Source: Sialis fuliginosa
Taxonomy: Eukaryota; Arthropoda; Insecta; Megaloptera; Sialidae
Direction: 5' to 3'
Assembly: GCA_961205875.1 (NCBI GenBank)
Contig: OY540813.1
Span: 17,641,001 to 17,705,000, forward strand
DNA length: 64,000 nt
Shown: positions 32,952-58,300 of the stretch, in pieces
Layout of the letters: each line of letters begins with the position of its first letter
Numbering within the stretch: position 1 is the stretch's first letter
Notes under the pieces: model-generated
What the model was told of the DNA's origin: nothing
The model's input: only the letters and a program-made list of their open reading frames with translations
Database searches by the model: none
Made by a program: the position numbers and the translations under genes

Positions 32952-33701
32952 ATACATTGTACTTATATTCATTAAAAAACTTTTTCCTGGATATAAAAAT
33001 GACATTCGTGTATTTGAAATAAAAAAACCTAAAATAATTCTCAATAAAATAAATTTAAACTATACTTAATTAAATAGGCACTGGATTGAAATTTTAATAC
33101 CAATGAACTGCATACTGCATAGGTACATGTTTCAGTTGCATAAAGCTGATGTTATACTATATGCACCTGAAACGAGTAAAAATGGGAAATTTTGATACTA
33201 TGTACAATACATTGTACATAATGTAATTTTTTTATTTAAATTAAAATTGTAAATATGTATCATTGGTTTGGATGTCTTATCCCACCCACCCTATTCACCC
33301 AACCTTTCCTCTTCGATTATAATTATCATTTATTTTGCTTCTTAATGAATTATCTTAAAGACGAAAATTAGAATTCTTTAAAATTTCAAATAACACAAAA
33401 ATAACATTGAAGTGCTTAAAAAGTAAAAAAAAAAAAAAAAAAACGGAAATTTTGGGTGATTTTTACCTAAAATATACCTAAGATGATAGAAGGTGGCTGT
33501 TCTTACTCAACTTTAAAATACCTATGAACTTTTCGAACAACCCATAGAAAATCGTTGTTGAAAGAAAAGTTATTTAGATAGGTATATATTACTGTTTTTA
33601 TTTAATTTAAAAATGAAAAATAAATTTTTATAGATCTTGAAAACAAGTGAATCTACTAAGTACTGTTAATTAAATAATTTAATTTAAGTAAATAGTTAAA
33701 T

Positions 33702-33800
33702 CAGCAACACGGTGTGTTTTTTTACAAAATGGCAACAAACCCTATACATTTTTAAATATACAAATTGTTTGATCTTTTTTGGTGTATATACGGCAAAACA
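33702..33800. mobile_element. MITE family 3, decayed fragment
   Basis: CAGCAACACGGTGTGTTTTT, then AATGGCAACAAACC and TTTTTAAATATACAA, follows the interior of family 3. The termini are lost. Confidence 0.45.
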
Positions 33801-33914
33801 AATGAAAATTTAATGTGATTTCTTTCGTATACTACATGAAATTATAGAAGTATCGCCAAATATATAGGTTAACCAAAAATGACATTTTAAAAAAATCATT
33901 TTTTTCGAACTGTC

Positions 33915-34111
33915 CGCATACTACTATTTTAATTGCAAAAGTAACTCTGTCTGTCTATCTGTTACCTTTACAAGACTAAACCGCTTAACCGATCTTGATG
34001 AAATTTGGCAGGGAGATAGCTTACATCCTGAAGAAGGACATATGGTACTTTTTATTGATTAGAGAAAAAATACAAATTCCACGAGGACAAAGTCGCGGGT
34101 AACAGCTACTT
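33915..34111 (+). mobile_element. short Helitron-like 3' fragment
   Basis: CTGTCTGTCTATCTGTTACC, CCGCTTAACCGATCTTGATG, GGACATATGGTACTTTTTAT and the end CGCGGGTAACAGCTACT follow the common insect Helitron 3' pattern. The terminal CTAGT has mutated to CTACT and the hairpin is imperfect. Confidence 0.6.
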
Positions 34112-35478
34112 ATTATATGTATAGTTGTGATACCGAGAACGTACGATATCAAAAACGACTGAAAGATATGTGAAAATATATGTATATATATAGGTAGAAT
34201 TATATATATTATATATGTTTTTATATTGGAAGATTAATGATAAATACTCTGACAAAAAAAAAACATATAGGCTGTCCCATATACAACTAGAAACGGTCGA
34301 CTGTTATGTTACATTTTACATTTTTTGTGGATTGACTCGCATATCGTTGTAAAAATAAATAAGATCATTGAGTAAATTAATTCAATGGTAAAATGCACAT
34401 TCTATATTTTCACGTTCTTACGAATCGAAGAAAATAGAACGGGGGGCGGCAAATCGTCTTTGTCCAGGAATATGCAGTTTTCAAATACTGTACTAAATAC
34501 CAGGGCCGGCATCAGTCTTGTCTTCGATATGTTTACTAGACACTCGAAAAATTTACGTGTGTCGAATTACCCACCAGAAATTTTCGCCTTATCTAAGAAT
34601 TAATTAATGTACTTCGAAATAATTGACTCAGATTTTATGAATAAAAAGCTAATTTGAATTTTCATTTCTATAACTGCATTCACTTTTTTACTCGACACTC
34701 GAAGTTTATCTGTTCTGCCGACCCTGCTGAATACGCCACAGTTAAATATAAGAAGTTACATAGAAGTAAAAAATTGTTCCAATATGATATTTTATGGATG
34801 TCCTTCTTTTATGATGTAAGCAACCACCATTTTTGAAATTCAATCCTTATGGGAGAAAGAAGTAAAAGGTGTTAATTTTTTTTTTGATACAATTATCTGC
34901 ATATAAGTGTTTATTATAAAGGAGAATTTCAGTTAGATTTGTAAATTATATTAATGGTCATAAAAATTAACAAAACGCGGATGTAGCCTGTAGCCGCGGG
35001 ACCCTGCTAATACGTCTCCAGTATATAAAATAATTTAGTCCGCTACTGATTACAATGGTAAATTAATTTATTTTATTCACATTGCAAGATATGTGCTGCC
35101 ACCTCTACAACATACCAAAAAAATGCATTTGAAGACACACGTGAACTAATGGTTCTTATCTTTACTAAAATTATACTTGAATAGAAAATAATATTATGTA
35201 TTTGAAATTATGTAGATAAAAATAAAAATGTAAAGCTATAATTAATACTTTATGCACTTAATTAATTTATTAAATCATAAATCCAACAACAAAAAGAATT
35301 CAAGAACTGTCAAAAATGACCATAGATTATGAATACATGACAAAACGCAAATAACATTGCACGATATGTTCTTATTTACAAGTAAATTTTGTCTCCAACA
35401 TTCACAAAGCAAATACATAATATGTAATTAATATTATAATTAATTTATTAGACTATAATATTATTTTAAACACCAATA

Positions 35479-38031
35479 ATGTCTTGTGCTGCAATTGAAT
35501 GTAATGATAAACATAAAAAAGATAATAATATAAAACTTTACAGGTATAAAAAACAGAAATTTATTACGTTCTTTTAATTATTAATATTTATATTTATTTA
35601 TTTAAATAATGAACGTTACTAACAGATTTCCTTTGGATCCAAAAAGAAAAAAAATATGGATGTTAGCTACAAAACGGACTGATTTATTCGCTGAAAATTT
35701 TCAATATCTTTGCTCAAAACACTTTACCGAAGATTGCTTTGAATTAAATTTCACTGGTTCTAAAATAAACTTAAAACTTGATGCTATACCAACTATTTTT
35801 GAATATCCAGAAGAAAAAATAATTATGGAGCAAGGAGAAAGCGATACTAACGAGTAATATATATTTAATAAATATAATTTAAATCGCACAAAAAAAATTA
35901 ATGCAATTTACTTTCAGATCTAAAGATAATGCGATCAGTACTGAAAGTGTAGGTAAGTTAACAGTATTAACAGAATAATATGCAGATGCAATGATTTCAG
36001 TAATGCAAAAGTATTCATCCATATATATATCCATAAATCTATATTAATTATATTTTACAAATTTTAGATTCTTCAACAGAAAATGGAAATTTTAGAAGAG
36101 CGACACCTTTAATACTTAGGTATTTACTCAGTATGAAAAATGATAGATAAAATAAAATTAATGTAAATTAAACTGTTTTCAGGAGAAAAAGAAAACTTAA
36201 TAGGCGATATATTGGAGACATAGCAATTGAAGATGTGCCTGAAGAATTTAAAAACAAATTTATGTTAACACAAGCACACATAAGTACACAACAAACTAAA
36301 ATTAAAAATCTTCAAAAACAGAATTTACGTTTAAAAGAAAAAAATTCAAATCTATATAATGTTGTAATTAAATTGAGTGATAATGCTAAATCTACTGATT
36401 CTGATGCTGTATGTAATTTTAATTACAACCAGTTTTTTTTTCTAATAAATGTACTGTAGTTTTTCATATTTACAAATATATTAACCCCGTAAAACTTTGA
36501 AAATAATGATAATAAAAACTTAGTAAAATTACATTTTTATATTAAAAAGCACTGGTTAATTAAAACTAAATTAAATATCATTTCAAAAGTTTTTATTTTT
36601 TAGATAACATCTGTCATACAACAAAATAAAAGCAAGCGAAAATTTTACAAATATTCACATGCCAATATTTATGATGCGATAAATGCTGTTAAAAATGATG
36701 AAATGTCAATACTTGAAGCTGTGCGGACTTATAAAGTCCCTAAAACAACTTTATTAAGAAAACTATCAGACAAATCTCAGCACCAAATACGTAAAACAGG
36801 TCCAACCCCTGAATTGGGATATGATCTAGAAAACAAATTAAAGAATTGGATACTTGAATGTACGGAATCTGGTTTTATATTTAAGAAAATCTATTTATTA
36901 GATTCAGTACAGCAGCTTGTGAGAAAATATAATCTTGAAACAAAATTTATCGATGGGCGACCAGGGCGTAAATGGTTAAACAGTTTTCAAAAACGTTATA
37001 AAGATGTTGAAAAAGTACTAACTAAAAATACAAATATAATTCAGGAACAAATTACAGAAAATAAAATCAATGAATGGTACAAAAATATGTCTGATTTATT
37101 ACAAGATGATGTTTCTATTTTAAATAATAATGAAAGACTATTTAATTGTGACGAGTTAGTCTTCTCAATTACATCAAAAGAAAGTTTAGTCATGACAAAA
37201 ACACAGTTACATTTTCATAATATACAAAACAACCCAAGTAAAACAAACCTAACAACTACATTATTCACTGTAAATGCAAATGGATTAATTGCACCACCTT
37301 TAACCGTTAGTACTTTCAAAGAAAGATCTTCTGAATTTTTCCACGATACACCCCCAGGTTGGGGCATTGAAAATTCAAAAAAAGGTCTCTTAACGGGGCA
37401 ATTATTTTTTGATTACATCAGTAATGTTTTTAATTTATGGTTGGATGAATTAAAAATTAAACGTCCTATTATTTTATTTTTACATAGAGAAAGATCGCAT
37501 TTAACTATAGAGTTGACTGAATTTTGTAAAAAGAATCAAATTATAATTATTGCATTAAATCCTTATGTAAATGATTATTCAAGTCCCTTAGAAGTTGCGT
37601 TATTTCACAAGTTGACATTTAATTGGAATACACGTTTAGACAAATGGAAAAATGATAATGGTATTTTAAATTTTACAGAAAGTAATTTAATTCATTTTCT
37701 TAACAAAGCAATACGCAATTCTTCCTTATCCAATCGTATTAAAGAAGCATTTCGAAAATTTCTACTACTACCATTTAATTATACAAACAATGATTATTAT
37801 AATCTAAAAAAATCAAACTTTGAAAATAAAATGGAAATAATTGACCCAAAACACTTGTCACATTTAGAATACTTAGAAAGAAAAATTAACCCAACATTAT
37901 TGGCAAGCTTTAAAAATATGAGACATAATTTAATTAATAATATTGCTTGCACAGAAGTAGCACATATTGCTCTGTATTTTATTTGGGAACAATTTGTGGA
38001 AGATGATGAAAAAGAAACAGCGGCAAAATAA
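35479..38031 (+). CDS. THAP zinc finger-pipsqueak HTH-pogo/Tigger DDE fusion protein, probably domesticated
   Basis: Six exons join in frame: 35479-35543, 35626-35853, 35918-35952, 36068-36119, 36183-36408 and 36604-38031, giving 677 residues. All introns are short (63-195 nt) with GT-AG ends. Residues 1-80 form a THAP finger: C3-x4-C8, W33, C51-x2-H54 and the closing AIPTIF at 75-80. A basic stretch (RKRKLNRR, 128-135) and a coiled coil (about 157-192) follow. Residues 219-257 resemble a pipsqueak helix-turn-helix, 268-334 a CENP-B/Tc5-type helix-turn-helix, and about 378-545 a DDE_1 domain. The first catalytic aspartate is kept (NCDE, D385). The usual DGHxSH is replaced by HRERSH (H496 for D) and the usual PLD by PLE (E532 for D). 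The frame is open throughout while catalysis looks lost, which suggests use as a DNA-binding host protein. A poly(A) signal follows at 38092. THAP fused to a pogo-type DDE differs from P elements, whose DDE is of another type. Confidence 0.85.
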
Positions 38032-38091
38032 GTTACTTGGAAACCCCTATGTGCAAACTGATTTCAAACACATATCCATAAAAAATATTCA

Positions 38092-38097
38092 ATAAAA
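38092..38097 (+). terminator. poly(A) signal of the THAP-DDE gene
   Basis: AATAAA lies 61 nt after the stop codon of the THAP-DDE gene, a usual distance for a cleavage signal. A perfect palindrome begins about 40 nt further on. Confidence 0.6.
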
Positions 38098-38134
38098 AAA
38101 TGTCTTTTCCATTTTAATTAATGATATTTAATAT

Positions 38135-38172
38135 TATCATATATTAATCTACTAGTAGATTAATATATGATA
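38135..38172. repeat. perfect 38-bp palindrome
   Basis: The left arm (38135-38153, TATCATATATTAATCTACT) is the exact reverse complement of 38154-38172 with no loop. It lies between two convergent genes, just past the poly(A) signal of the THAP-DDE gene. It could extrude as a cruciform, or form a hairpin in read-through RNA from either strand. Confidence 0.9.
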
Positions 38173-38382
38173 TTATGTACCATATCGGAACTTCACCTAA
38201 TAACATACATAAATAAAAGTGATGAAGTAATTGAAGAATATGCAACCAATAAAGAAAAAAAAATTGTCGGTATTTTTTTTTTGTCAGAAAATGTATTTTT
38301 TTACTTATGATATATTATTTTTTTAATAAAAAATATGAACAATGAATTTAAAAACGTCTTTTATTTCTACAGACATTATACA

Positions 38383-38462
38383 TAACACATTGTTGACCAG
38401 CCACGAGTTAACTCTTGTTTTAATGCTCAAATGTTGTAAAATTGCTGATCAACAATGTGTTA
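38383..38462. repeat. stem-loop with 19-nt arms and 42-nt loop
   Basis: The arm TAACACATTGTTGACCAGC (38383-38401) pairs with 38444-38462, with one mismatch in 19. It lies between the convergent 3' ends of the THAP-DDE gene and the first THEM6-like gene. It may be a tiny MITE or a hairpin in the 3' region of either transcript. Confidence 0.7.
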
Positions 38463-38549
38463 AAGTTATGTTACATTATTATATCCACCTAGTGAAAGTA
38501 AAAAAACATGATCTCTATAAAATCACACTGCTCAAAACATTAATATCAT

Positions 38550-38555
38550 TTTATT
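38550..38555 (-). terminator. poly(A) signal of the proximal THEM6-like gene
   Basis: TTTATT on the + strand reads AATAAA on the minus strand, about 53 nt after the stop codon at 38608. Confidence 0.5.
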
Positions 38556-38607
38556 AAAAAATAATTCAACTTCAAAATAATGTTATATTATGATATAAAA
38601 ACTTAAT

Positions 38608-41600
38608 CTAATCAGATTTCCTTAATCTGGCACTAGTAATTTCAACACTTTGCATCCAGTGTCGTACTTCTTCTGGACATTCTGACTTCTTGTAATCTTT
38701 TCCAAGCAATTGCTTCATCATTTCATCTACATTTACACCAACAATATCTTGTTTACTAATTGAAACAGCTCTCACAAATTCATCTTTTAGTGTAATGAAA
38801 TGTTGTTCGAGGAATAAACTCTTCTCATCCCAATGAATTAACTGAAAAAATAACAATTATATTAACAATAATTGTAGTCCATGATAGAAGTAACAAGTAG
38901 GTGTACATATGAACATTTTTGAGCATGCAACTGATTGGAAAATCAAAATTGATACTGCATTTAAGCAGAGATGTGCTGCACAAATGGCCCCGCGGGTAGA
39001 TCAGCCCCACGCCGAAATTTTAATATGAGCCTACATTTTATTATTTAAATTAAGTAAACCCGGATTCAAAAAAAATGAAAATATTTATAGGTATTTAAAA
39101 AAAAATACATATCAATATAGAGTGCACCAAAAAATTTCAAATTTTGGCAGCGTTGATCCTGTAAAAAATTGTTACATAGGTACCATTTGAAAGCTTAGAC
39201 CGCTTAGACGACCGTACTGATTCTGAGCTTCAAAATGTTTTTTGGTATATTTTACATTAAGTTATTAAAGTTTTCGGCTAATATCGTCATTTTCACTTAA
39301 CGAACTTTGACAAAATAGTATACCTTGGATAACGCTAATTCCCAGTGATACATTTTTTCTTTCATCAGGTGGATAAAAAAAAATAGTAGAGAAAATAAAA
39401 TAAAAGAGATTTTGATGCTTACAATTCAAGCTTAAAATTGGTATAAATGAAATTTAGTTGCAATTTTTTTAAATACGAATTTAAAACTAGACACTATGAA
39501 ATGCTTTTTTGTACCATTTGTTCAGTTTGTAAAAGCTCATGAAGTGAAAAGAACTCAGTGAAAAAAATTTGAGAAAATTTTTTTTTGAAGAGTATAAACT
39601 GTAGAATTTTTAGACGAACCCTTTATTAGCCTATAACTTATTAAGATTGAAAGTTATCAGTCGTTCACCTTTAAAATTTATACCTATTGTATTCATTTTT
39701 AAATTAATAAATAAACATAAACTACAGTTATTTACCTTTGTATTGACTTTATAAAATGTAAAAATAGGAATACTTCTTCTATATCGAATATTCGAAGCAC
39801 CTTGTAACGCTGTTCCCTTATTCTTAACAATGGCAGCATATAGTCCACTGCGTTCATAATATTCAAACCTCGCAAAATCTAGCTCCCTGATATATCTAGC
39901 ATTGTTCATATGTCTAATGAAAATATCTACATCTTGAGTTGTGCAAACACCTGAAAAATAATAATAAATAATAATCAAGGGTGGTTTTAATATATCTAAA
40001 GTATTAAGCCCTTAAATTGCAGTACAACCTCTATATAGCGATTTTAATTGTTTATGCAGCATGCATTGATCGAAATATCTTGAACTTTTTTGTATAACAA
40101 CATAATAAAAATTTCAAAAAAAAATATAGGTACATCAGAAAAGTTATCAATGAAAAACAATGCTTTTCATTTTTCGATATTTACTATAATAAAAATGTGA
40201 ATTTTTATGTAAATACCGGCAGGTACCTATCTAATAATTAACAGAACACCGCCTGTAATTTTTTATTTATTTATTTTAAAAAAGATATCTACAAATTAAA
40301 TCAATTTGCTGCGTGCGTCATATTTGCGGAAGTAAATTTTTAAAATTTAACGTTCTATTACTGAAATTTATTATGGCTACTTTCAAAAACTGTTAATATT
40401 GATTTGCGTGTTACTTACAAAATTCAGACTGAATTTAATTAAAAAATGTGTTTATTTATTCTGAAGTTCTTTAAAATAATTATTAAATAAAATAGATTTT
40501 AAAACTTTTTGTTTTTACTTATGCCTTGGCACTTTACAGAAACGGTCTCCGTCACCGCTTCGACCTTGCAAATCTATTATATGTGATTCAATACAAGTGG
40601 CATGTTAACTGCGTCGAAACGGCACTGCGTTTTGACGCAGGAGACTGTTTCTGTAAAGTGCCAAGGCTTTATTTTTACATCATCATCAATAAAGCAACAT
40701 TCGAAAAAAATATTTGCACTTCTACTATAAAAACACAATTTAAAAATGTAAGTTTTTCCTTCCTTATTATTATACTGTAAATTCATATATATAATACATA
40801 TGCATATGTATGTATGCTATGACTGTACAAGCTCAAATAATAGGTAATTAGTTATCAATGAAACAATACAATACAAAACTAATAAAACTTGATTACTCAG
40901 ACCTAAAATACGAACATATTCTACTCGACATATTATATGAAATAACTATTACAAAATACTTCTATATTACAATACATTTATACCTGATAACAGGACCGTA
41001 CCTAAAGACTCTGAGGCCCCGGGGTAGCAAGTTACAGCCCTGCCTGATAGTAGGTATAAAAATTAAAGAAAATAATAGAAACAAGGTATCAAACGTATTA
41101 CACCAGTGACTACTTCTATTTTTGGTATAAAATTAGACAACCGCTTTAAGATAAGTAAGTAATTTTAATCTCTAATCAAAGCAATTCATAAATCTTATCC
41201 ATTTATTAATTCTAAAAAAATATTGAAAGCACCTAACATAAGACATGTTTTAAAAACATCTTGGTGTCAAAAATATTTTAATTGATTAGTATAACATAAC
41301 ATAATTCTTCTTCGAACGTTTCTGGAGCATTATTTTCCTAATAAATCAATCAATAATTTTATCGTACATATGACCATTTTCAATTTAATATAGTAATAGT
41401 AAATTAATAATAAAAAGCTATGTACCATCTGACATCTCAATAATGCAAGATAATTATTTTTTTATCAAAAATGACGTCAGTAATATTTACAAGCTAAAAA
41501 TTGATGCATCTAAAGTGAAATTAGCAAATACATTTCTAAATAGTTAACTTTCAAAAAATTGTTTTTATTTGCCAAACTAGGTATGAGTTGATTTATGTAT

Positions 41601-52384: not shown

Positions 52385-55300
52385 TCAGCAAATGTTACTT
52401 CGAAGATTAGCGCTTGAAATGTCATTAGACTCAACCCATCGTTCAACTTCCAATGGAATCTCTGGTTTCTGATATGTCTTATGTCCAATTTCAGTATCTG
52501 ACGGGCTCTTTGGACCCCATGCAAGAAGTTTCTTCATTACATCTTCAGCATTAGCATTGATGACCCTTTGCCGACAAATAGCAATTGCTCGAACAAAACT
52601 GTCTTTTGGTGTGATGAAACGGTGTTCCATAAAAATGGATTTGTCATCCCAATATATTATCTGAAAAAAATGAACAGTTTAATTGTAATCTTTATTACAG
52701 TCAGTGGCATCGCTAACGGCTAATACCGTCAAAGGAGTGACACCTGTCCCACATATTCAAAAATAATGCGTATTTACCACCTTTTTGGTTATTTGAAGCT
52801 TCTAGGGGGTAAAATATGTAAGAATTGAGCCAATTGACTTTTTTTGTCATTAAAAGTCTATAAAGGGGTGATAACCGTCCAATTTATTAATAAACAATAG
52901 AGTCCACTTTTTTTTTGTCGTTAAAAATTTATAGGGGGTGACATTTTGTGCAAAAAATAAAACATATTGATTTTTTTTAGGGGGGTGAAACTATCAATTT
53001 GGCATGGATTATATCCATTCAGTTCGTCTTCGATCATTCTAGTAACTGATCATCGAGTAAAGCGTAATCTAAACTTGCACGATAATGTGAATATCATAAG
53101 ATTTGATTGGAGTGAGACCAGACCGACACCGGCTCGAGACCAGCTCGATGGTCTGGATCGACCCTAAAAGTGTAATTTAAACAAAATTAAATTAATAAAA
53201 TGCAAAATCACTTAATATTTTAATTTTATTATAATTGACATAAAATAAATTAAACTTTAGATATTATTAATATTTAAGTATTAAACTAAATAATATAGTT
53301 TATTTTGTTTTTTCCGTAGGAATAAATCTTTTATATTAATTAATTTAAAAATATTTCTGGTTATGAAAATAGCGACCCCCGAGTAAAATGAAAAGTCGAT
53401 GGCTATATTTATTACACAAAACAGTTAAAGTACAATACTATATTGATGTTTCTATTCTTGTATAATACTATTGAGTATTAAAATCGATAAATATACAACA
53501 CATATAATACAGCTGAACAACATGTTGCATACATATCAATAATTAATATGTAATAAAATAATTTATAGGTACTCGTTTTTCAACGATTTAATTTGTATTG
53601 AAATGTTTTATTACAAGATATTTATTGTATTTAACTAATTAAAGTTACATGTATAATGAAGGCTGAAGAACACAATATACAATTCATACATTTAATTAAG
53701 TAGACGAGGTTTCCTTTTTATTATTTATTTTTATATTACTTTATTTATTTTACAAAAGTCTGCAAAATTTTCAAAATCATATCAAATGAGATGTCGAAAA
53801 AATATATCTTACATTCTGAACTTCTAACAATAAGTGTGACACCAAAACACAAATATGAATGCACTGGGAATCGGAAAAAGTCTTAAATTTTCTTGAATTT
53901 AGTACTATAATGTCCGGTATTATAAAGGAGTTCGCAAAATTTGCTAGCTTGCAAGCACTCTCAAACGGGGTATTAATTCTAAACTAGTATCAATGGATTA
54001 GCTATGGAATTTAGAGCAGTGACACTTCAACTAATTGTAACAAAGTTGGCGACTTTGACTGTATAAAATAATTTTCATAATATCACCACTGTTTTAGTAC
54101 CGCGAAACTTGTCAAAGTCTTCAACATCCTCCAAGAGAACTGTCATATAAGTTTGATTCCTCATTTGAGAGTGCTTGCAAGCTTGCAAATTTGCAAGCTC
54201 CTTTACAATACTGGACATAATTAATGTGGAAAAATAATAAATTTATGACATGCAAATTTTCTTATAACTATTATTTATTACAGTTAAGAACTATAAAAAT
54301 AATTTATAAATGAGTCAATAAGTTTTCCCATAATAACAATAAGACAAATAGCAAATTTGCAATATTCATGAGAATTAATTAAAATAGACCACTAATTATT
54401 TACGTCACCATGCGATAAATATATTTTTATGCAACGATTGCAAATCAATCGGTTTTTTTTCAGAAAATCCTACATTTTTCAAGTTACAAAATTCAATTGT
54501 AAATATAATTTATGTATTCCCTTCTAGTCAAGCCATGAATAATATCGTAGGAGGTCGGCAGTCTGCGTCATTTATGAATTAATAACAAAGTAGCATTTGT
54601 TTCTGCAAGTATATTATTTCCAAAATGCCGTTCTTTTGCAATCCGAAGAGAAATTTCCGAAGATAATTTCTATAACATTGTTAACGTTATACACGGAAAA
54701 AATATACTGTAAGAATTACAGTTTTTCCTGTCTATCGCGAATAGTAAACGAAAACATATAATATTTTACTGTCTGAAACTGTGATTATATAATTTTAGGC
54801 TGTAATGTTTGCAGTTTATCCATCAATTTATATTGAGTATTAATTTACATTACAGTCTAAAATTATATTATTGCAGTTTCAGAAAGTAAAATATTATATA
54901 TTTTCGCTTACTATCCGGGATAGACAGAAAAAAATTTCATACCTGTAAAATCTATATAAATTCGTTAAGAATTTTATTTTCCTCAAATTTAAACGTTAAA
55001 ATTCACCATTTAATATATGGCTGACCTAATTATTCGAAAAAAACGGTTTTTACATCAACATCACAACTATCTTTGGGTTTTCTTTCATTTTCATGTATAT
55101 TTATTATAAAATACCAATTATAAATTTTATTTAATACGGGCCAGTTCCAACTAATTCAATGGTCTTAGACTATTAAACAGTAAACGTCCTATCCAAATCG
55201 GTTCAGTAGTTTTCATGTCAAATCGGAACAAACAGATAAACAAAAAAACTACGAACTACCAAAAACATTCGAAATTTTCAAAATATTTTCATTGTACAGA

Positions 55301-58300
55301 TAGAGCTCATATCAGTATTGATTACAATTTTTCTAAAGACAGACCAATAAAAAGTAGAAAGTTAGTGCGAAAGATAATACATATACGAGTATTATATACC
55401 AAATACCGGGTGTTCAAAATAAAACGTTATGAATTTATATTTCGAAAATTTATTTTATTTAGTTTGAAGGAAGCATTATCCTCATATTTTATATTTGTGG
55501 GTGTTTTTTTTTTTTTTTGTAATAAAGAATCTAATGTTTATTTAAAGATCTAATTCTATGTACTTAAAAAAAATTATACATTTTTTAACTCGAAGTGATT
55601 TTTTAATTTAAATTTTTTTTATGGAACGCGATTTTTGTCATATTTAAAATAAATTCATTTGAAGAAAAGTACAACAGAAAAAAAGTTTGCAAATATTTTT
55701 TTTAACTGCAAAAAAATTAAATATTATTTCAGACAAAAGTTTCAATTTTGCTTCCTCGCCATATCGATGATACAAGAAACGTTTTAAAATGAGAATAAAA
55801 TGTTCTACGATTTCAAAATTTTAACTTAATCTTTACGTTTCAGGTCAAGACAAACACTTTTCGTTCCGTGTCTGTCTGTCTGTCCCCTGAATCCTTGTTA
55901 CACTCATAACTCATGAACCACTGAACCTATAATAATGAAACTTGGTTTGTTAGTTGGCTCTGGCTTGAGGGCAGCTTCATTTAAAAACCATCAAAATTAT
56001 GTGTAAGTAGGAGGGCTAACATCCCAAAAAAATATTTTTTTCAAGATATATAAAGACGATGGATGTTTACGCGAAATTTTATAGAATCTTTTATGTAGAA
56101 CATTTAATTTTTTATTCATTACAACTTTTGTAGTAAAATATTCCCTTGGGAAGATTTATCTCCATTTGCTTTAAAAAATTGTCATTTGTTTTATGTAATC
56201 GCATTTTACTTTGACATATTAAATGTTATTTTGACGTTTGCATAGCAGAAAAAAATAGATTTTAATTGAAATTGTTAAAAAACTTAAAATATACGAAAAT
56301 AATCAGACGCGTATTAAAAAAAATTTCGAATTAGAATACTTTCTTAATATTTGTTAAAATTCTTCAATAATAAATTTTTTTTAAAACTAGTTTTTGGTGA
56401 ATTTAGCACGAGGAAGCACTGTGCATTCACTTGGCAATGTTTTTTTTCACGTGGAATCAGATCCTTAAAATAAAAATATAAACACTCACAAATAAAAAAT
56501 ATCATAATATTTTCCCCTCTAAACTATTTAATTTTTGTCTGAAAAGTTCTTTTGTAAGCATCATAATTTTAGAAATAAATATCCACAACGATTTATTTTG
56601 ATCACCCAGTATATATACATTTTTTTAAATAAGTAAGAAAATAAAAGGTTTCAGTTCAAATCCCTTCGGACATAACCATTTCTGTACTAACTAATTTTTT
56701 AACTTACTAGATATAAATAGGTAGTATGAATTCTGTGGTGTGAACTAGTATATGATTTCATATTAAATATTTAACATTTTATCGCAATAATATTACTTAC
56801 GCCGATTTCTCAATGTACAATCGCAACGTTGTTAGTCTTTTACAATGCAGGAATAGTGACCGACCTCGAATAGCCTTCTGATTACGATTAAATGCACTTA
56901 GAAAATAGTGTAACTTAGTATGGGAAACACACGCCTATTTATCATTTATAATTATGTTTGTTTTCATTAAATTTTGTAATGCAGGTAAAAATTATACATA
57001 CTAAATGAAAAAAAATGTATTACCTACGTATAATACATAAAAAAAATTTTGCTCAAAATTTATTTAGGTATAAAAGACACCCCTATTTTTTCAATCAGCA
57101 TGTATCTCAAGTCTCAAGTTAAACATAAATTTGTAATGAAAAATTCAGTTATCGTTTAAAAAAAACATCTGCCAAGTAAATTCACAGTGCTTCCTCGTGC
57201 TGAATTCACCAAAGGTAGTTAATAACTGAACAATTTAAATAAAAACCGATAAAGTGTTTAGATAAATTGCCTGGCATTGGTTAATTAATCATTTATTAAT
57301 TTATTAATTAATTTCTATACAATTTTACAAAAAAATTTAGTTAAGACGCACTTGATTATTTTTTCGTATATTTTTAATGTTTTGACAATTTCTGTCTAAA
57401 TCTAAATTTATGCAAACGTCAAAATGACATTTAATATGTATGTCAAAGAAAATATAAATTTAAAAATAAAAAACAAATGACGATTTTTTAAAGCAAATTG
57501 AGACAAATCTTTGTAAGGATATATTTTACAACAAACGTTGTAGATCTATATTATAAGAAAATGAATGCTCTACAAAAAAGATTCTATTCTTGAGATATCT
57601 TGAAAAAATAAATATTTTGGGATGTCACCCCTCCCCCTACACACGATTTTGATGATATTGTAATGGGGCCGTCCTCAAGTCAGACCCAACCATCCCACCA
57701 AGTTTCATTAATATCAGTTCATGAGTTATGCGTGTGACAGGGTTTCAGGGAACAGACAGACAGACACACATACACGGAACGAAAAATGTTTATCTTGACC
57801 TGAAACGGAAAGATCAATTTAAAATTTTGAAATCGGGAACAATTTTTTTGTCTCATTTTAAAATGGATTACAATGCTTCTCGTATCTTCGATATTGCGAA
57901 GAAGCAAAATAATTTCAAATCATGTAAAAGTACTCTTAATAAGAAAGGAGTTGTTTTTCATTATGTAATAGTAATAGTGTGTCACAGAAACCGGACTGCT
58001 TCAGACATGTGTTGTTAAGCAAAAATGTTGGAAAACATTGTTTTTGACTGCAGGTTTTCAAATTGGAAAAATAATTATAACACTTCCTTAAATTTTATTA
58101 ATCTGAACAAAATTAAGCTACTTTTTAACAAAAAAATATTCAAGCACATAAAAATACCTATAATGAAACATTTTATCATTCCAATCTTAACTTCCGCTTA
58201 TGTTAATTTATTGCGAAGAAAGTTTTTTTGCAATTCACTTACAATATCTATAAATTATTTTCTTAATAAATAGTTACACATTTAATTTTCCATTATATTA

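Follow-up and report, generated by a model that had tools for sequence, protein, structure and literature searches.

The window, a stretch of 64,000 nucleotides (C5:17641001-17705000; GC content 28.6%), contains a gene in which a THAP domain is joined to a pogo-type transposase. The genome comprises 392 Mb in 20 contigs, and its 42 matches to 7tm_6, an odorant-receptor family specific to insects, show that it belongs to an insect. The gene is located at 35479-38031 on the plus strand, and its six GT-AG exons join in a single frame that encodes 677 amino acids plus a stop codon. We consider it most probably a host gene formed by transposase capture (probability about 0.72), that is, a domesticated fusion that would act as a DNA-binding regulator without transposase activity. 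The exons are as follows.

35479..35543, plus strand: exon 1, start of the THAP domain (donor CAG/GTATAA)
35626..35853, plus strand: exon 2, remainder of the THAP domain (acceptor TTACTAACAG, donor CGA/GTAATA)
35918..35952, plus strand: exon 3, 35 nt, placed by its splice borders
36068..36119, plus strand: exon 4, 52 nt, placed by its splice borders
36183..36408, plus strand: exon 5, basic, with a probable coiled coil (matched weakly by coiled-coil families)
36604..38031, plus strand: exon 6, putatively captured pogo-type transposase, 475 codons plus stop (acceptor TTTTTTAG)

Exons 3 and 4 total 87 nt, joint skipping of both leaves the frame unchanged, and they may be optional in the transcript. 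Exon 6 is open over 475 codons; by comparison, the longest frame among 200 random sequences of 64 kb with matching order-2 composition has 217 codons. GC1, GC2, and GC3 of exon 6 are 36%, 28%, and 19%, and the introns are at 18%, near GC3. We count this pattern for the capture reading, but an active transposon in an AT-rich host would show the same.

The domains of the predicted protein were identified using Pfam, with THAP, HTH_psq, and DDE_1 all exceeding their curated cut-offs.

35485..35800, plus strand: THAP domain, residues 3-80, across intron 1 (E-value 3.8e-15)
36664..36765, plus strand: HTH_psq, residues 223-256 (E-value 2.2e-4)
36823..37008, plus strand: HTH_Tnp_Tc5 of CENP-B type, residues 276-337 (E-value 3.4e-4; 21.0 bits, slightly below the cut-off of 22.2)
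37246..37647, plus strand: DDE_1 match, residues 417-550 (E-value 1.0e-8)

THAP domains are defined by C2CH zinc ligands and a terminal motif of the AVPTIF type. Both are present here, as C3, C8, C51, and H54 and as a terminal D-A-I-P-T-I-F. The best solved relative of the THAP part is human THAP2 (2d8r; E 8.3e-18), whose solved chain does not include a transposase part. The psq HTH, CENP-B/Tc5-type HTH, and DDE_1 follow one another in the order of the pogo superfamily, with the Tc5 match just below its cut-off, and the relatives L011 and L014 exhibit the identical order. The AlphaFold2 model of exon 6 alone has a mean pLDDT of 36. The initial annotation of this DNA, which was made from the sequence without database searches, had proposed the same six-exon join and the same domain order; the splice sites (GT donors, AG acceptors) and the Pfam matches agree with both. 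The coiled coil that it placed behind the THAP domain is probable, judging from the look of the sequence and the weak matches of exon 5.

Relatives of both gene halves were searched for in the genome, where all counts are lower bounds. Among the best 90 of 104 candidates, exon 6 has at least 65 other protein-level matches in the genome at E up to 0.001, and its best-scoring relatives are 32-33% identical across most of the length. Higher identity was found in short stretches (52% over 48 residues on C4 and 39-41% over about 60 residues on C1). They come from decayed copies that resemble L010 and L011 more than exon 6; catalytic site 2 is D in each. The closest genome relatives of exons 1-5 are at most 39% identical (58 of 58 candidates). 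A longer match on C5 covers residues 13-196 at 32% identity inside a long frame, which we take to be a P-element-type THAP transposase. With 3.8 kb of DNA spanning the gene as the query, the best 40 of 422 candidates gave, beyond the gene itself, matches to two short repeats that follow the stop codon, and no longer DNA match. Further genome searches scored 150 of 261 and 137 of 137 candidates. A second copy of either gene half was not found in the 392-Mb genome, given counts that are lower bounds. No relative was found in viral contigs, and one short weak match was obtained in Larkinella in the search of genome contigs.

The catalytic residues of exon 6 were compared with those of relatives at 29 loci (L010-L038) taken from the exon 6 matches; two of 36 weaker matches were also examined. 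L023, L024, and L034 were dropped for their short frames and L026, L027, and L036 as exact duplicates. Both halves of L018 (6 stops) were excluded from the triad count, which leaves 22 relatives that include near-copies of others (L012, L013, and L032). Removing these near-copies and the odd-motif loci L017, L019, and L022, by our own choice, gives 16 selected relatives. The three catalytic sites, placed by comparison with the relatives, are as follows.

37150..37152, plus strand: catalytic site 1, D385, retained
37483..37485, plus strand: catalytic site 2, H496; D in 16/16 selected relatives
37591..37593, plus strand: catalytic site 3, E532; D in 15/16 selected relatives

The motifs read as the initial annotation had described them, with D385 kept in NCDE, H at position 496 in LHRERSH, and E at position 532 in PLEV. 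The triad of exon 6 is thus D-H-E, and D-D-D is required for an active pogo transposon. D-D-D is present in 19/22 compared relatives. Three have a single change (N at site 2 in L017, E at site 1 in L019, and E at site 3 in L037), and none of the 22 has two changed sites. In the nearby LQP motif, Q is present in all 16 selected relatives and S in exon 6. The annotation had counted two of three aspartates as lost. Both are indeed changed, but a disabling effect is clear only for the replacement of D by H at site 2. The change at site 3, from D to E, retains the acid, and the same residue is found there in L037, whose other two sites are intact.

In a tree of 21 proteins, no terminal branch is longer than that of exon 6 (1.50 per site), and the next longest belong to L035 (1.47), L019 (1.26), L017 (0.94), and L022 (0.87). 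Exon 6 groups with L017 at a low support value of 35. The long branch also fits relaxed constraint. Exon 6 keeps 3/4 conserved columns of the psq HTH, 7/10 of the Tc5 stretch, 22/34 (65%) of DDE_1, and 2/5 of the C-terminal part. HTH function is not assured, as columns are less kept in the Tc5 stretch and the C-terminal part. The conserved DDE_1 columns are kept at 74-96% in the 16 selected relatives and at 64-69% in L017, L019, and L022. Among 15 sites that are invariant in the selected relatives, three are changed in exon 6 (D294H, Q327S, and G387L in exon-6 numbering), two in L017, three in L019, and five in L022. In a leave-one-out control, which scored each selected relative at the sites invariant in the others, 10/16 showed zero changes, L037 showed changes at 4/18 sites, and L031, L035, and L038 showed two each. 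The measure therefore gives no clean split between domesticated and mobile copies. Some of the changes in exon 6 may predate the loss of mobility.

The longest branch and the altered catalytic residues are also what would be seen if exon 6 were a recent pseudogene, a dying pogo copy beside a THAP gene that is still open by chance, and the deviation of the D-D-E relative L037 at 4/18 invariant sites agrees with such decay. We regard this explanation as unlikely. Neutral change simulated from the present frame of exon 6 already brings a mean of 2.3 stops at 2% divergence and 5.9 stops at 5%. At each of five divergences, no more than 0.4% of 3000 runs produced a frame without a stop in which at least three of the 15 invariant sites were hit. 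The simulation omits insertions and deletions and is thus lenient to decay, but its threshold of three was chosen after seeing the gene. An intact frame with catalytic damage is unlikely under recent neutral decay by this limited test. The genome candidates searched include neither a close copy nor a source element. These findings suggest, indirectly, that the frame of exon 6 has probably been maintained by selection after catalysis was lost.

It is rather improbable that the gene model joins two adjacent genes, where a THAP/coiled-coil gene would end by read-through of exon 5 and a separate immobile pogo copy would have an undetected first exon. Read-through of the exon 5 donor stays open until a stop after 36456, and AATAAA is present in intron 5 at 36511, so that a short THAP isoform ending in this intron is possible; these features would suit a two-gene arrangement. 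The 5' edge of exon 6 argues against it. The acceptor TTTTTTAG places an in-frame TAG immediately upstream of exon 6, and the first in-frame ATG is located at 36703, within the psq HTH. Without an ATG ahead of the first HTH, exon 6 alone would not yield a whole transposase and needs an upstream coding exon, which exon 5 supplies in phase 0. The exon 5 donor (GTATGT) and the exon 6 acceptor agree in this phase, and intron 5 is merely 195 nt. The missing start before the middle of the HTH and the in-frame TAG that is the splice acceptor itself therefore disfavour two genes.

A frame covering the HTH is present in 20/22 relatives. Sixteen of them have an ATG 9-20 residues upstream of the psq HTH, and L017 has one at 62 residues. 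The ATG is absent before the HTH in L019, L022, and L037, where L037 is poorly aligned at that region. Counting the D-D-D relatives with a frame covering the HTH, 16/17 have the ATG at 9-20 residues, with L022 as the exception. At the level of the sequence, the host and transposase coding parts of the THAP/pogo gene share one spliceable frame, as in a fusion gene.

Terminal inverted repeats were searched for around the gene and around exon 6 in two scans. The first used gapless arms with 8-base seeds (left arms in 34401-35478 and 35855-36604, right arms in 38021-39600), and its best pair is 23 nt with 5 mismatches and TA on neither side. The second covered 33500-40000 and gave exact 16-nt inverted pairs at 33602-33617/39692-39707 and 34248-34263/38273-38288 (E 0.008). 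Both pairs are A/T-rich, one being mainly an A run, and neither has TA on both outer sides. We take them as chance for these reasons and because L011 has pairs of 14-16 nt at a similar E-value. The method is able to detect such repeats, as it recovered the perfect 25-bp pair of the control pogo element L025/L026/L027, which has three copies of about 3.55 kb that are at least 99.8% alike. This is the one of three multi-copy controls with both ends covered; L011-L013 and L030/L032 are uninformative on terminal repeats. Multiple copies with terminal inverted repeats, as in an active pogo transposon, were thus found for one control element and not for the THAP/pogo gene. The initial annotation had held that near-identical copies and flanking terminal repeats would speak against a host gene. 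As far as the search tool reaches, the genome shows no near-identical copies, and the regions scanned show no convincing repeats, which supports its reading of a fusion between host gene and transposase.

The 127 THAP and 100 DDE_1 matches of the genome were also compared by position. Among the matches listed, only in this gene do a THAP and a DDE_1 match share a strand at a distance of up to 2 kb; another pair (C14:5917831 and C14:5926689) is 8.9 kb apart on the same strand. THAP domains are known in P elements and DDE_Tnp_4 proteins (excerpts of PMC13228809), but a transposon family carrying its own THAP domain ahead of a pogo transposase is a very remote prospect here, given that no second copy was found among the candidates scored, no terminal repeats were recognised, the triad is changed, and none of the 65 other exon 6 matches has a listed THAP match up to 20 kb upstream on the same strand.

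The architecture, the frame, the missing ATG ahead of the exon 6 HTH, and the catalytic changes of the putative domesticated fusion are read directly from the sequence, as are the negative searches for a second copy and terminal repeats; we infer its splicing, expression, DNA binding, regulation, targets, and order of events. A gene with THAP and a coiled coil (exons 1-5) would have acquired exon 6, a pogo-type transposase, as its final exon. The joining would have used an acceptor at the 5' border of the transposase frame, with loss of the start codon that the transposase originally had. The anatomy of the gene favours this order, and not the gain of THAP exons by a transposase. The product would bind DNA via the THAP zinc finger and the pair of psq and CENP-B-type HTHs, and it may pair through the coiled coil. 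DNA cutting is not expected since the second catalytic aspartate is histidine and the third is glutamate. The product would probably regulate transcription or chromatin, perhaps where the DNA resembles old pogo ends.

The neighbouring genes include exons of a 4HBT_2 thioesterase on the minus strand at 39634-40011 and 38611-38856, which form one gene by the parts of the profile they cover; the latter is below the cut-off on its own. It is convergent with the THAP gene, and about 0.6 kb separates its end from the stop codon of the latter. A further 4HBT_2 exon is located at 52388-52678 on the minus strand, and the two 4HBT_2 genes are perhaps tandem duplicates. A palindrome at 38131-38180 (38 nt perfect core) recurs at many places in the genome, and a short hairpin repeat at 38380-38464 has three other genome matches that are 86-88% identical. 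The window also contains 34 repeat pairs, dispersed or inverted, with E-values up to 1e-5 (for example 55745-56326 and 57332-57910), none of which overlaps the gene.

Host-transposase fusions of vertebrates were reportedly described by Cosby et al. in 2021. They are said to have host exons first and the transposase as a later exon added by splicing, with the DNA-binding part kept and often with KRAB as the host part. Compared with those fusions, the host part here is itself DNA-binding. POGK, POGZ, and CENPB of vertebrates are pogo-derived chimeric genes, as given in excerpts of PMC7386202. The THAP/pogo gene is similar to them in that a pogo transposase (DNA-binding and DDE parts) is fused to another domain in a host gene. 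It differs in the partner: those genes carry KRAB, zinc fingers, or a dimerisation domain, and the gene of this insect carries THAP with a probable coiled coil. THAP proteins with P-element or DDE_Tnp_4 domains have also been reported (excerpts of PMC13228809, a preprint, and of PMC10027918). THAP9 and the THAP/DDE_Tnp_4 proteins likewise have the THAP domain preceding the transposase domain; theirs is of the P-element or DDE_Tnp_4 type, whereas the one here is a pogo-type DDE_1 (excerpts of PMC13228809). Neither a THAP-pogo fusion nor a lola-pogo exon was found in the open-access literature as far as its searched excerpts cover it. As far as these searches go, THAP with pogo is an unreported combination within host-transposase fusions.

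Other pogo exons of the same genome were also identified beside regulator exons. The pogo exon L019 (L060; C9:12225924-12227267, minus strand) does not have an ATG before its HTH and begins at a phase-1 acceptor. Over 29.7 kb, its flanks contain eight upstream and three downstream frames that encode paired C2H2 fingers on the same strand; Pfam was run on three of these 11 frames, and two exceed the cut-off. An exon matching zf-Tnp_2, a DDE_Tnp_1-like zinc finger, is also present beside L019 in the same C2H2 array (L060 5675-5926, minus strand). About 62 kb further upstream of this stretch, two BTB-domain exons are located on the same strand (C9:12307100 and 12306018), and the open frame of the second finishes in a phase-1 donor, whose phase matches that of the L019 acceptor. 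From the BTB sequence and the exon layout, we take this gene to be lola. The L019 pogo exon fits one more alternative last exon of a lola-like BTB gene.

L017 on C4 (L059 6135-8408, plus strand), with N at site 2, has a C2H2 finger frame directly upstream on the same strand. An in-frame splice between the two is possible from a reading by eye, which we offer as a lead. Catalytic changes at one or two sites are present in exon 6, L019, and L017 alike. L022 (L061, C13:16897392) keeps D-D-D and has no ATG before its HTH and 5/15 invariant sites changed; no upstream exons were recognised for it on C13. We see an even chance that genes for DNA-binding or BTB regulators in this genome have captured pogo repeatedly as their last exons, namely the THAP gene, the lola-like gene, and perhaps the C2H2 gene on C4.

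The THAP/pogo gene would be an insect example of the vertebrate route in which splicing into a transposon supplies a host gene with a ready-made DNA-binding module. With a THAP finger and a psq/CENP-B HTH pair in one protein, it would allow tests of how a single factor recognises DNA in two ways. A second case within the same genome would be the pogo exon of the lola-like gene. If repeated capture is true, insects would gain new transcription factors through transposase capture, in line with reports for vertebrates.
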